This document shows positions 26,010-45,064 of a DNA stretch of 64,000 nt, piece by piece. Position 1 is the stretch's first letter, and every line of letters starts with the position of its first letter. The stretch comes from Anaeromicropila populeti. GTDB taxonomy: Bacteria > Bacillota > Clostridia > Lachnospirales > Lachnospiraceae. The stretch covers positions 51,688-115,687 of the forward strand of contig NZ_FOYZ01000012.1 of the NCBI RefSeq assembly GCF_900112775.1, given 5' to 3'. The notes under the pieces are model-generated. The model was not told the DNA's origin. It did no database searches and saw only the letters and a list, made by a program, of their open reading frames with translations. Both the position numbers and the translations under genes were made by a program.

Positions 26010-26789
26010 CTAATCAACCAGCATTCTCCTGGTATTCCCACGATGCATCCCTGGACTATCCTTTCCTAACTTGGCCATCTCCAATATTTTGGATAAATAA
26101 CTATGAATTTGTTTATTCGTTAATTTACCCTTTGCCACATTATCAACCCGCCGCTGAATATACTTTTCTATTAACGTACGGTTAACTGGCTGCTGCTGCA
26201 TGCACAACATAGAAAATGAAATATCAAAAGGATCTGATAAACGATATCCTAACATCTCTGTTGCAAACTGATATAAAACAACTGGTGATATTGTACTTTC
26301 ACCTATACAAGAATAATTCACATTAATTATATTAATCGTGTTATGCTGCGTTGTAAAATCCAAGAAATTTTGGTAATCTTGCCTTAATACTGCACCATCC
26401 TTCAAAATAAAACGGCACAGTTCCATTTCGTTTTTTTGATTTGGTTCTTCCCCGTTAATAATAATAGTAGATTCATTTCGAACCTCATAAATATCTTCAT
26501 AGGTATCACAAAAACAAATTTTAACAATTTGTTCCGTTCCAATCGCATACTCATCACAAGTCTTAATCCCACTCAGTCGATACAATACATTGTTATACTT
26601 TACGATTCCAGGAGCTATGCTAATACACTTTCCATCAGAAATGATAATATCAGCCCCACAAATAACACCATTGGAATGATGTTGAAACATAATATTGTTT
26701 AGTTCTCTAGGATAATCCTTAATATTTTCAAGCATTTCTGCTTTTAGTATCATATCTCTCGAAAACATAGGATAACTATCTTGAAACAT
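26010..26789 (-). CDS. Uncharacterised 259-aa cluster protein, baseplate/TssK-like candidate
   Basis: I recognise no family with certainty. The N-terminal 75 residues read as a helical lead (MFSRDMILKAEMLENIKDY) followed by short beta strands (NGVICGADIIISDGKCISIA, PGIVKYNNVLYRL), a pattern seen in phage baseplate and fibre-attachment proteins and loosely in TssK. The rest is mixed, with a helical C-terminal third (KYIQRRVDNVAKGKLTNKQ). The last residues, NTRRMLVD, match an NTRRMLID segment in the FHA protein at 34664-35185, including 15 identical bases, which suggests a shared recognition or phosphorylation site. It is the last gene of the cluster, 23 bp after the Hsp70-like gene. Confidence 0.5.
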   Translation of the reverse strand: MFQDSYPMFSRDMILKAEMLENIKDYPRELNNIMFQHHSNGVICGADIIISDGKCISIAPGIVKYNNVLYRLSGIKTCDEYAIGTEQIVKICFCDTYEDIYEVRNESTIIINGEEPNQKNEMELCRFILKDGAVLRQDYQNFLDFTTQHNTINIINVNYSCIGESTISPVVLYQFATEMLGYRLSDPFDISFSMLCMQQQPVNRTLIEKYIQRRVDNVAKGKLTNKQIHSYLSKILEMAKLGKDSPGMHRGNTRRMLVD

Positions 26790-26812
26790 CTTATTATTCC
26801 TCCAATATTTTA

Positions 26813-29548
26813 CTATCTGGTTCCGTCAAAGAAATCGACTTCCCAAATATCATTTTCAAAACCATAGAATTCTTCCCTGCCCAAATACAGCTGTGTTCCC
26901 TGCCTGGATATAGGAACAATAAAGAAGCCCCATTGGTCTTTGGCAGCAAAAATGAAAAACTTCACCTCTGTATCATTGATATTATCTGTATCATCCTGAA
27001 TAATATAGTCCGCATAATCTCTATATTTCTCCTGAATATCTTCATAGGTAACAGGTTCATAATCACGCTCATAGTTATTATAATTATAACGGAATTTTAG
27101 TTTTCCTGAACCATCCTTTAACAATAGCTCTAATTGACGAATCCCCCTATTACGAGAAAGAAAACCATATCGTTGTTCTTGATCCAGACTATAAATCAAT
27201 TGTTTTTCCTTATTCTCATGTGTAAATCCTGTTACAGAATATGGAATCATTGGCATACAGTACTGAAGATTTACATTGGTGTAACCAATTTTTCTGGCAT
27301 TAATATATTGAATTGCCCCCTTAACACAAGACAGCTTTAATTCCATAATACTGGCACTATCATTACTATGATGTTTAAATTCAATATTTTTTCCTGGAAT
27401 AAATTCCTTTAATGCTTCACGAAAAATATCAATTCTACAAGATTGTCCTGTAAGTTTGATAATGGAAAAATCACTGAGTATTCCTTCTTTATAAAAGTCA
27501 AAAAGAAATTTATTTACGATTTCATAAATATCTGCCTTTAGCAAAAGCTCAATTTCTTTTATATTAAATATAATATCTGGAAAGGTGTGATTATAGGTTA
27601 AACGTCCACCTTCATTTACTACCAGGTTCCATCTTTCAATTCTAGTTATTTTTAAGTCATCATCTTCCTGCTCATAATTTGATTGGAAACGGTTTCGAAT
27701 GACACCCTCACTCATATAAAACTGCTTTTTCATTTTATCAGCAATATCAAAGAGGAAATAGAAGTTATTTTTGACCATAAAATACTCGTCACGAGTTCTA
27801 TTTTCATAATTCTTAAACTTAGTTGGTATAATTTGTTCTGCTTCCTCATAAGCACGCTCTAATTTTTCATAAACAGCTTCTTTTCCAAACTCATCCACAT
27901 ATCTGAAAATATCTTCGGAAGCTACTGTAATTAATTCATCGATTTTAACTGGCTTTTGTTCTGTATAGTGAGTTGCAAAAATAATTTTTATATATTGCAT
28001 AATACGATACGTAATATTATTACCACCAAAATTAGTATCACCGTTTTCGTAGGTAGTTTCAATATTTACGTTATATGCTACAGAATCATTTTCAATGGAG
28101 AAGGTGCAGGAAGATAAATCCGTGGTACCACCGCCACAGTCAATGATTAAAGCTGACAAGCGTTCACCGTCATAATATTTATTTTTTTCAATTAGATTTG
28201 CAATTGTATTATATAAGACAGCTGTACCTTCATCCAGCATATGTTCTGTTTCCAGTTCATATTCAGGAAGTACTTCCCGAAACATTTGGGCAAATTGTCT
28301 CTTTTGCTTCACTGGACTGGTAATATGAAGTGTTTTAAATTTACACTTAAAACGCTGTTCCGCACATCTTATGACATATCTTAAATATTCACCAATAATA
28401 TCAGAACGCTTTACCATGGCGATGTTTCCCTGCTTATCTGTCACCTCTTGCAGAGCATCATAATTATTTATCCAACGTTTTATTTCAAAGAAAACACTAA
28501 AGGTTTCGTCATAATACTTTACTTTATTAGCCTTTTGCGCATCATATCCAAATTGAAAAACAATATTATTTTCATCACTACAATCCTGAATACTGACAAC
28601 GGTTGGCAGTAACGGACTCCAGATCTTTTCGTTTTTTGTATTGTCCAAAAAATTCACGATATTGATTTGATCTAATACAATTCCTCGATTTGAAATATCG
28701 TGATTATTATGACGGGATACATATCCGTAATCCAAATATGCACCAGCAGCTGTGTTAGATGTACCAAAATCAATGGAAAGAATGGCTTCAGTAATTTCAG
28801 CCTCCCGCACTTCAATATCAGCCAACGGAATTTTATAATAATTCAATGCAGCAATTCCCTGTTGCTCGATGTCATAATACGTATTATAGATATAATCTGA
28901 ATCCCGTTTTTCAAAATAAATCATAGAGTAGTGTCGGTGCTGTTGCATTCTCAATGGAATATCTGCACTTTTACAAAGATAAAAATGAGGTGGCTCATGT
29001 CCATCACTAACTAAATTAAAAATACCACATAGTTCATTGCCTTCACCAATTAGTAATACATTGGATTCGCCTAAACGATTTACAACAGCTTTGCTGATAT
29101 CATCCCGCTTCTGATGATCAATTTCAACCTGATACCGATCATATAAAGTAAGATCCAAATCATTGTAAACAATAAGCTTAGCTGGATTACGAATGGTTCC
29201 CTCATCCTTTAGCTGACCACCCAGTTTTCGTTTTAATAATTCTTCAATTCGTTCAAATCCGCCTTCTTTTGGTTTCGATATTAATAACGTTTCCTTTTCT
29301 CCACGATATCTAAGTATGGTTTCAATTAATTCATACCGATTCAAAGGATTGGTTATTCCCTTAATAATTTTTTCTTTATTACAAATTTCCCTTAATTGAT
29401 AGGTGGTCATTTCATCAAGTTCTTTTTCGCGATAAGTTGTACTATATTGCACTACTGGCTTTGAATCTAGATTTAATGAATATGACGGCTTTTTAGGCGG
29501 TTCCAAATTCAATTTAAAGCCTGGTTTTTTGCTGACTGGCACGCTCAT
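26813..29548 (-). CDS. Large Hsp70/actin-fold ATPase with SAP-like N-terminus
   Basis: A 911-aa protein. Residues 1-45 are proline- and lysine-rich; about 48-84 (TTYQLREICNKEKIIKGI..., ELIETILRYRG) look like a SAP helix-extension-helix; from 256 an Hsp70-type ATPase is clear, with phosphate-1 ILSIDFGTSNTAAGAYLD, phosphate-2 ALIIDCGGGTTDLSS (466-480) and an adenosine-type motif LTGQSCRIDIF (near 700). It lacks the standard DnaK substrate-binding domain and is longer than DnaK, resembling large bacterial Hsp70-like ATPases. With the DnaJ-domain gene at the other end of the cluster it may form a dedicated chaperone pair for assembly or disassembly of the structural proteins. AGGAGG is one base from the ATG; a GTG two codons later may be the true start. 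Confidence 0.8.
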   Translation of the reverse strand: MSVPVSKKPGFKLNLEPPKKPSYSLNLDSKPVVQYSTTYREKELDEMTTYQLREICNKEKIIKGITNPLNRYELIETILRYRGEKETLLISKPKEGGFERIEELLKRKLGGQLKDEGTIRNPAKLIVYNDLDLTLYDRYQVEIDHQKRDDISKAVVNRLGESNVLLIGEGNELCGIFNLVSDGHEPPHFYLCKSADIPLRMQQHRHYSMIYFEKRDSDYIYNTYYDIEQQGIAALNYYKIPLADIEVREAEITEAILSIDFGTSNTAAGAYLDYGYVSRHNNHDISNRGIVLDQINIVNFLDNTKNEKIWSPLLPTVVSIQDCSDENNIVFQFGYDAQKANKVKYYDETFSVFFEIKRWINNYDALQEVTDKQGNIAMVKRSDIIGEYLRYVIRCAEQRFKCKFKTLHITSPVKQKRQFAQMFREVLPEYELETEHMLDEGTAVLYNTIANLIEKNKYYDGERLSALIIDCGGGTTDLSSCTFSIENDSVAYNVNIETTYENGDTNFGGNNITYRIMQYIKIIFATHYTEQKPVKIDELITVASEDIFRYVDEFGKEAVYEKLERAYEEAEQIIPTKFKNYENRTRDEYFMVKNNFYFLFDIADKMKKQFYMSEGVIRNRFQSNYEQEDDDLKITRIERWNLVVNEGGRLTYNHTFPDIIFNIKEIELLLKADIYEIVNKFLFDFYKEGILSDFSIIKLTGQSCRIDIFREALKEFIPGKNIEFKHHSNDSASIMELKLSCVKGAIQYINARKIGYTNVNLQYCMPMIPYSVTGFTHENKEKQLIYSLDQEQRYGFLSRNRGIRQLELLLKDGSGKLKFRYNYNNYERDYEPVTYEDIQEKYRDYADYIIQDDTDNINDTEVKFFIFAAKDQWGFFIVPISRQGTQLYLGREEFYGFENDIWEVDFFDGTR

Positions 29549-44638: not shown

Positions 44639-44692
44639 GTACAGCCGCCCCCTTGTTTTTCGTATTCCAATCTCAAAATAAAGAATTCCCTG

Positions 44693-45064
44693 TTAAAACT
44701 TAAACCCAAAAAAATCATTAAACTGTTGCTGTGATTTCTTAAACTCTTCACCCATATCTACTTTCGTACCTTGGCTGCCAGTTCTTCTCTGGGCAGGCTG
44801 CTTCTTCACTCCGCCAGCAGTACCACGTCCCGTTCCAGCAGAACTAGTTTGTCTTTGTTCTCTATCATAATCAGCCTTCTTGACATCATCGCTTAAAATA
44901 TCATATGCTTCTGATATTTGTTTAAATTTCTCCTCTGCAACCTTATCACCAGGATTGGAGTCAGGATGATATTTTCTTGCCAGGGCACGATATGCCTTTC
45001 GAATCTCATCCTTTGTTGCACCTTGTTTAACGTTCAAAACCTCATATGGATTAAATGATTTCAA
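44693..45064 (-). CDS. DnaJ-domain protein
   Basis: A 123-aa protein consisting of a J domain (3-70) with the HPD motif in ARKYHPDSNPG and a Gly/Arg-rich tail (about 75-123), without the zinc-finger or client domains of DnaJ. J domains stimulate Hsp70 ATPases; the likely partner is the Hsp70-like protein at the other end of this cluster. It starts with TTG, eight bases after a GGGGG ribosome binding site, and is the first gene of the cluster, behind a strong promoter. Confidence 0.9.
   Translation of the reverse strand: MKSFNPYEVLNVKQGATKDEIRKAYRALARKYHPDSNPGDKVAEEKFKQISEAYDILSDDVKKADYDREQRQTSSAGTGRGTAGGVKKQPAQRRTGSQGTKVDMGEEFKKSQQQFNDFFGFKF

Follow-up and report, generated by a model that had tools for sequence, protein, structure and literature searches.

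A kinase-, phosphatase- and Hsp70-linked gene cluster as candidate launcher of VgrG–PAAR-like spikes in Gram-positive Clostridia and Bacilli

A 64,000-nt stretch of the genome of Anaeromicropila populeti (GCF_900112775.1, contig NZ_FOYZ01000012.1, positions 51,688–115,687, forward strand; hereafter the window) carries a cluster of 16 open reading frames (ORFs) that we propose to be the launcher of a type VI-like contractile injection machine. We give this reading a probability of about 0.77. The cluster would provide an Hcp tube, a likely sheath, a candidate baseplate and a membrane module of kinase, FHA and phosphatase proteins, and would fire VgrG–PAAR spikes encoded in six islands elsewhere in the same genome. 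As of 2016, type VI secretion had been described only from Gram-negatives (PMC5349215). DUF4280 proteins are found in Gram-positives, where a functional phage-like translocation system was called a 'fascinating possibility' (PMC5349215), and the Gram-positive machine serving orphan PAAR-like spikes was left as an open question in 2016 and again in 2021 (PMC5349215, PMC8651086). We found no published description of such a launcher, in a search that most subscription journals and bioRxiv lay outside, so an unseen report is possible.

All 16 ORFs lie on the − strand, from 45064 down to 26010, as the original prediction had laid them out from the letters alone. Pfam bore out its DnaJ protein, three FHA proteins, kinase, vWA protein, two PP2C phosphatases and dead PP2C, and its Hsp70-like protein weakly. 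A scan of one genome per species returned 256 relatives of the central 722-amino-acid (722-aa) protein; locus counts here and below refer to the best 80 of these 256 loci. Transmembrane (TM) calls are from hydropathy, and values after family names are expectation values (E).

45132..45160, − strand: promoter-like site TTGAAA-17-TATAAT upstream of the first gene (11/12 consensus matches)
44693..45064, − strand: DnaJ-domain protein, 123 aa (Pfam DnaJ 1.2e-27; homologue in 57/80 loci)
43094..44638, − strand: membrane protein with C-terminal FHA domain, 514 aa, clade-specific (Pfam FHA 5.6e-17; 7/80 loci)
42330..43085, − strand: cytosolic PP2C phosphatase, clade-specific (Pfam PP2C_2 2.5e-11; motifs intact by eye; 5/80 loci)
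40238..42286, − strand: membrane vWA-domain protein, 682 aa (Pfam VWA 1.9e-17; TM in 50/50 members; 51/80 loci)
39269..40174, − strand: Ser/Thr protein kinase, 301 aa (Pfam Pkinase 6.1e-34; 66/80 loci)
36995..39163, − strand: conserved core protein, 722 aa, proposed sheath (at least 2536 homologues; no family match)
36468..36893, − strand: Hcp/TssD-family tube protein B, 141 aa (Pfam TssD 0.012 alone, under cut-off)
36017..36436, − strand: Hcp/TssD-family tube protein A, 139 aa (Pfam TssD 0.0018 alone, under cut-off)
35229..35822, − strand: membrane FHA protein, 197 aa (Pfam FHA 3.5e-9; TM in 68/68 members)
34664..35185, − strand: zinc-ribbon-like and FHA protein, cytosolic, 173 aa (Pfam FHA 2.8e-4; CxxC pairs by eye; 67/80 loci)
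33813..34664, − strand: membrane-anchored PP2C phosphatase, 283 aa (Pfam PP2C_2 1.3e-10; TM in 80/80 members; 79/80 loci)
31628..33775, − strand: transmembrane pseudo-phosphatase, 715 aa, candidate anchor or scaffold (degenerate PP2C 2.2e-3; TM in 73/73 members; weak sub-cut-off TPR matches)
30306..31589, − strand: core protein, 427 aa, candidate baseplate part (73/80 loci; no Pfam match)
29582..30280, − strand: core protein, 232 aa, candidate baseplate part (73/80 loci; no Pfam match)
26813..29548, − strand: Hsp70/actin-fold ATPase, 911 aa, proposed recycling or assembly chaperone (weak Pfam and NCBIfam Hsp70; Pfam 0.019, sub-cut-off)
26010..26789, − strand: core protein, 259 aa, candidate baseplate or adaptor part (37/80 loci, most others ending before it)
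25958..26001, strand not assigned: perfect 19-pair inverted repeat directly after the last gene, likely operon terminator

Database searching found at least 2536 relatives of the 722-aa protein, a count made on the best candidates scored; the protein is 65–80% identical over the best 80 loci, which belong to Clostridia and Bacilli (Lachnospiraceae, Clostridium, Tepidibacter, Anaerovirgula, Paenibacillus, Brevibacillus, Aneurinibacillus, Lysinibacillus, Sporosarcina, Solibacillus and others). Its gene is single-copy in A. populeti. Counting that genome, 6 of 98 relatives have it, as do 13 of 398 genomes sampled across the phylum, the 13 spanning nine families; its distribution is therefore patchy. 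Viral contigs (including IMG/VR), phage collections and plasmid collections held no relatives. Public records label some relatives of the 722-aa protein 'transcriptional regulator' and some Hcp-like relatives 'membrane-associated protease 1'; these are probably misannotations that hid the system.

The Hcp-type gene lies directly downstream of the 722-aa gene, on the same strand, in 80/80 loci by a six-frame recount (75 clear, and 5 with a stop-to-stop frame that overlaps the end of the 722-aa gene); plain ORF calls, which drop overlapping shorter ORFs there, gave 71/80. The commonest order was 722–Hcp–DnaJ–FHA–FHA–PP2C–dead PP2C–427–232–Hsp70, closing with or without the 259-aa gene (16 and 13 of the 80 loci). 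Within the stretch covered, the Hsp70-like gene was found in 74/80 loci and the 427- and 232-aa genes were missing from 7/80. The first FHA protein and first PP2C of the window are extras of its own clade. Because the same order recurs across Clostridia and Bacilli, the clustering of these genes is far beyond chance.

The two tandem proteins of about 140 aa are 40% identical paralogues, and their assignment to the Hcp/TssD tube family, made by size in the original prediction, is well supported overall by profile matches: 23 of 30 family members matched Pfam TssD (PF17642; best 5.4e-6), which we take to be the Hcp type of the Bacteroidota type VI secretion system (T6SS). Two of the 30 matched the T4 gp19 tail tube, and one database relative (P0186) carried a precomputed TssD label. 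A PDB search with the family profile gave a single, weak match (E 0.024), to 6bdc Hcp1, presumably a Bacteroides Hcp.

No VgrG, PAAR, ClpV or TssJLM had been seen in the window from its sequence; VgrG and PAAR-like genes were found elsewhere in the genome, and beside the cluster in relatives. A. populeti encodes five VgrG-like frames of 467–486 aa and seven copies of DUF4280 (PF14107). Six islands are marked by DUF4280, on contigs C18, C22, C27, C29 and C31 (two), all unlinked to the cluster; the seventh copy lies within a separate operon on contig C23. A typical island runs ~193 aa–VgrG–~200 aa–~175 aa–DUF4280–long VgrG-like (770–899 aa). In the C27 island the ~200-aa gene follows the long VgrG-like gene, and the C29 island departs from this plan: it has a pair of short VgrG-like proteins and lacks a long one. 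Pfam matches within the islands included Phage_GPD (3.2e-9 and 2.7e-6), Phage_base_V (5.3e-5) and DUF4280 (7.3e-24 and 6.4e-17). Compared with T6SS VgrG by hhalign, the VgrG-like protein (gp27-like plus OB/needle) aligned over 413 columns at E 9e-13, a score that 0 of 150 column-shuffled profiles equalled. Also in the C29 island is a gene for a 478-aa protein whose domain is that of a DNA/RNA non-specific endonuclease (Endonuclease_NS_2, 1.8e-39). The gene after it encodes a YezG-like immunity protein (4.1e-35), so that the two look like an effector–immunity pair. The cargo would most likely be antibacterial. A by-eye reading of the ~193-aa protein of the spike module as a DUF1795 chaperone found no support in Pfam scans of 16 members.

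In relatives, spike genes adjoin the cluster. We took 15 genomes, picked for spread from the 80 loci; all had a spike domain, and in all 15 the spike module lay downstream of the 259-aa gene, within ~6 kb (in genome G101 the adjacent spike copy fell under the Pfam cut-off). The 259-aa gene itself follows the Hsp70-like gene in most extended loci. G108, in which no Hsp70-like gene was seen before the spike module, is an exception, and in G103 two ORFs separate the two genes. L008/G109, one of the 15, is also one of the pair of loci nearest to the window (80% identity in the 722-aa protein), and its spike module follows directly.

Two divergent genomes, each a single contig, place the spike gene inside the operon. 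In G491 (722-aa match, E 6e-81) and G359 (1e-72) the order is 176-type–722–Hcp–VgrG–427–232–Hsp70–259, with 722–Hcp–VgrG–427–232 contiguous in both and VgrG adjoining the 427-aa gene. In G359 nothing interrupts the run through Hsp70–259, and ahead of it lies a 595-aa fusion of DUF4280 and an AHH nuclease match (1.9e-6; 1.5e-4, the latter just below its cut-off). In G491 seven ORFs (~9 kb, one on the opposite strand) separate the 232-aa and Hsp70-like genes, and a 594-aa neighbour is DUF4280-like by eye only. Neither run contains a recognised kinase, FHA or PP2C gene; a kinase-like gene lies ~8 kb beyond in G359. Since these divergent operons hold VgrG and no recognised phospho-genes, VgrG is, by gene order, part of the core, and the phospho-module is likely an add-on to it.

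Spike and cluster also co-occur across genomes. With the spike profile, 20 of the same 398 genomes scored E 1e-10 or better. All 13 genomes carrying the 722-aa gene had a full-length spike, their best matches reaching E 6e-53 or lower, and it was found in 0/385 others; the other seven matched over the C-terminal OB/needle part only (model positions 259–469, E 7e-16 or worse, frames of 225–284 aa). This division into full-length and partial spikes was drawn after the result was seen, and at most two (722-aa) or four (spike) first-look candidates were scored per genome. The chance of such co-occurrence would be ~1e-24 if the genomes were independent, which they are not fully. Among the 98 relatives, DUF4280 occurred in 5/6 genomes with and 6/92 without the 722-aa gene (Fisher p 4e-5).

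We compared the cluster and its islands with T6SS. Both have an Hcp/TssD tube, a VgrG-like spike, a DUF4280 PAAR-like tip, and nuclease and immunity-type genes; both have several unlinked spike islands per genome, and a Rhizobium reference T6SS cluster likewise holds a kinase, FHA and a PP2C-bearing TagF. Unlike T6SS, the cluster has Hsp70-like and DnaJ proteins in ClpV's stead and a conserved transmembrane pseudo-phosphatase, and its hosts are Gram-positive Clostridia and Bacilli. Profiles for TssA, B, C, C2, F, G, H, J, K, L, M, TagH and TagJ gave no match among 2633 ORFs of 221 partly overlapping loci, at the sensitivity of references from eleven Proteobacterial plasmid clusters (rather than Bacteroidota), some built from very few sequences (few for TssJ). 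In these fetched loci the TagF profile gave three weak matches, all to PP2C-type proteins, the T6SS Hcp profile gave one, and the TssE/gp25-type profile matched only the separate C23 operon. Thus tube, spike and PAAR-like tip are there, and the TssE/F/G/K baseplate, the TssJ/L/M membrane complex and ClpV (TssH) are missing from the fetched related clusters. By gene content the cluster is not a T6SS; it probably works like one.

Several observations weigh against the launcher reading. No spike gene adjoins the cluster in A. populeti itself, and six of the 92 relatives that lack the 722-aa gene carry DUF4280. The original prediction was to fall if the 722-aa and Hcp genes occurred apart. They stood together in all 80 loci, and the claim largely survived; among genomes examined later, though, G450 has its Hcp gene ~6 kb away from that for the 722-aa protein, and in G067, which is 89% complete and has the 722-aa gene on a short contig, no Hcp was recognised and there is no DUF4280. 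A 20-kb stretch of G151 yielded no recognised cluster genes beyond those for the 722-aa and Hcp proteins. Pfam's cut-off is 25.8 bits, and the window's own Hcp copies stay below it, at 18.6 and 15.9. Against Proteobacterial Hcp the family aligned over only 28 columns at E 0.0044, with T4 gp9 nearly equal at 0.0047; the shuffle control for this comparison was uneven, two of 150 shuffles scoring far higher (~133), apparently an artefact. Catalytic motifs vary as well: the strict DGxGG is kept in 14/80 members of the 283-aa PP2C family (GD(S/T) in 74/80), and the HRD-type loop in 49/64 kinases (DFG in 64/64). From these counts, phosphatase and kinase activity seem likely here and perhaps not in every relative.

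Further points against it concern the 722-aa protein. Neither it nor, for Pfam, its family members matched Pfam, NCBIfam or PHROG; a PDB search with its profile returned no sheath or tail protein; and comparison with TssB and TssC profiles did no better than shuffled profiles. The TssC-like C-terminal layout ascribed to it in the original prediction is confirmed by no profile method. By eye, its first 215 residues resemble TssB (FDEF...P, VDFKFE..LD..SP) and later motifs resemble TssC, a likeness that profiles left unsupported. Its reading as a TssB–TssC fusion was dropped: the score of the N-terminal part against TssB was reached by 22/150 shuffles and that of the C-terminal part against TssC by 31/150. 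An early profile had ranked TssB best of 13 (E 0.017); the score fell to shuffle level with better profiles, and this match was rejected. From its company, size, gene order and conservation, the 722-aa protein is nevertheless likely to be the sheath.

If it is not, the cluster could encode a non-contractile tube-and-spike exporter, in which Hcp rings and the VgrG–PAAR spike would be loaded and then driven out or let go by some other principle, and the 722-aa protein would serve as tube cap, scaffold or assembly platform. The lack of sheath homology by any method tried, and of ClpV/TssH in the fetched loci, speaks for this alternative. We regard it as unlikely, given that the 722-aa protein is sheath-sized and among the most conserved parts, that its gene sits directly upstream of Hcp in every one of the 80 loci, and that it is present wherever a full-length spike was found among the 398 genomes. 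A second, divergent relative of the 722-aa protein (27–30% identical) directly follows the Hsp70-like gene at L013:10380–12437 and L046:20007–22037, in two loci of Lachnospiraceae whose covered stretch is without the 427- and 232-aa genes; a PDB search with this second sheath-like paralogue returned nothing.

The 427-, 232- and 259-aa proteins would be the baseplate parts of the launcher. The 427- and 232-aa genes are kept in both divergent operons. Counting against this assignment, likenesses seen by eye to TssK, TssF/G and gp25 gained no profile support, in comparisons with T6SS, T4 and the genome's own eCIS-like proteins (single sequences for T4 and eCIS, the extracellular contractile injection systems). 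Pfam scans of 26 (427-aa) and 28 (232-aa) members gave scattered matches in one or two members each, the window's copies of all three proteins could be placed in no family (for the 259-aa protein this was the only copy scanned with Pfam), and PDB searches with the 427- and 232-aa profiles matched no tail protein. A string common to the 259-aa and 173-aa FHA proteins, NTRRML(I/V)D, proved unconserved in the FHA family (5/67). The 259-aa family ends in (R/K)-hydrophobic-x-hydrophobic-(D/E) in 20/22 members, a short conserved tail that is absent from the two divergent ones; it could be a docking peptide.

Could lysis instead release the machine, as an eCIS or a domesticated myophage tail? eCIS, too, have VgrG/OB-domain and DUF4280 proteins, and the islands share with Afp/PVC-like systems the OB/needle spike domain, DUF4280 tips and toxin cargo. 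The same genome does have a separate eCIS- or phage-tail-like operon (C23:1–31000; L097, L203), with Phage_base_V (5e-19), a gp25-like protein of 141 aa, baseplate-size proteins of 1003 and 713 aa, and DUF4280. It is this operon, and no related cluster, that the TssE/gp25 profile picks out. The cluster, in contrast, has no gp25-like gene and joins the gp27-like and OB parts in one protein of ~470 aa, and four of its families are membrane proteins. Among eCIS, Afp8 and Afp11 are core markers (PMC8213781). Tube and spike families resemble those of the T4 contractile tail (gp18/gp19/gp5/gp27); unlike phage tails, the cluster is chromosomal, and seven of its proteins scanned against PHROG gave only weak, chance-level matches. 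With no relatives in viral, phage or plasmid collections, and a full-length spike that tracks the 722-aa gene across the 398 genomes (a survey of the spike, not of eCIS presence itself), we consider lysis-released origin very improbable.

The membrane proteins count in favour of the launcher reading. Hydropathy TM segments were called in all members of four families (vWA, 197-aa FHA, 283-aa PP2C and 715-aa dead PP2C), by a crude measure that also flagged 7/80 of the 722-aa family. The 715-aa protein keeps DGxGG in 0/73 members, so the active site that had looked dead in the window is degenerate family-wide; because the motif loss and the membrane segment are both conserved, this pseudo-enzyme is probably a structural anchor or sensor. 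The 911-aa Hsp70-like protein has both nucleotide-phosphate motifs in 38/39 members. Given these motifs and its frequent DnaJ company, it would be a natural stand-in for ClpV, whose role in T6SS is described in PMC4632598. Its residues ~40–85 look SAP-like by eye. In G491, amid core genes, one frame (L211:4577–6646) encodes a full Hsp70 fused to vWA (1e-91 and 1.3e-21), as though one protein there combined the vWA and Hsp70 roles that are separate in larger clusters.

That the cluster is instead a phospho-signalling or stress-chaperone complex, its Hcp-like proteins unrelated beta-barrels and the spikes passengers of another machine, would suit the fact that kinase, FHA, PP2C, vWA and Hsp70 are its most recognisable domains, but the divergent 722–Hcp–VgrG–427–232 runs with none of the kinase, FHA or PP2C genes recognised among them, the 13/13 against 0/385 spike co-occurrence and the TssD matches of 23/30 Hcp members make it a very poor candidate.

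We propose the following working model for the launcher. The 722-aa protein would polymerise round the Hcp tube and contract, and the 427-, 232- and 259-aa proteins would form the baseplate. Transmembrane FHA, PP2C and dead PP2C proteins would dock the machine on the single membrane, in the stead of TssJLM. The kinase, opposed by an active PP2C, would phosphorylate a partner read by the FHA domains and so switch assembly on or off, as in the threonine phosphorylation pathways of T6SS (PMC5995506). On contraction the sheath would push the Hcp tube, the VgrG/DUF4280 tip and the toxic cargo out across the single membrane and the wall, with nearby bacteria as the probable targets, and the Hsp70-like ATPase and DnaJ may then dismantle the spent sheath, as ClpV does in T6SS. 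We think it fairly likely that this is a separate class of Gram-positive contractile injector, with a one-piece sheath, a single-membrane dock, kinase/PP2C arming, Hsp70–DnaJ recycling and spikes from scattered islands, and that it is the translocation system predicted in 2016 and 2021.

The cluster is flanked by obgE/L27 genes on one side and, directly downstream, by an operon of CotH-like, DUF4956 and VTC-domain genes (22550–25943), an unrelated conserved trio (names read from the sequence on both sides). At its two ends the original prediction had placed one good promoter and one perfect terminator. The promoter-like site does match consensus at 11 of 12 positions, yet the region shows no excess of such sites over shuffled sequence (106 against 95.5). 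The terminator has its perfect 19-pair stem, with no clear T-run behind it on the − strand. Of the original prediction, Hcp-type tube proteins, an injection apparatus, genes for phospho-control and an Hsp70/DnaJ pair in a Gram-positive are supported, as is the lack of ClpV, in the loci that were fetched. Its core idea is largely right, with the 722-aa protein as a likely sheath.

Orphan VgrG/PAAR-like spikes with toxins are many in Firmicutes. Like the PAAR_H2 and Phage_GPD loci described earlier (PMC8651086, PMC5349215), the islands of A. populeti combine PAAR-like and Phage_GPD spikes with toxins and have no T6SS or eCIS genes around them; they would presumably be PAAR_H2 in the typing of those papers. 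Those reports had the spike only and speculated on the translocation system, whereas here there is a co-occurring and, in relatives, linked launcher candidate. Given the perfect co-occurrence with the spike in the 398 genomes and the linkage in relatives, the question of a Gram-positive launcher can now be put to the test directly in Paenibacillus, Brevibacillus, Lysinibacillus and Clostridium, which are culturable. If our reading is true, the cluster would be the launcher that earlier authors suspected in Gram-positives and did not find. If it is contractile, it would show how such a machine can dispense with TssJLM and ClpV and still work over a single membrane, and many gut and soil bacteria would be seen to have a further contact weapon.

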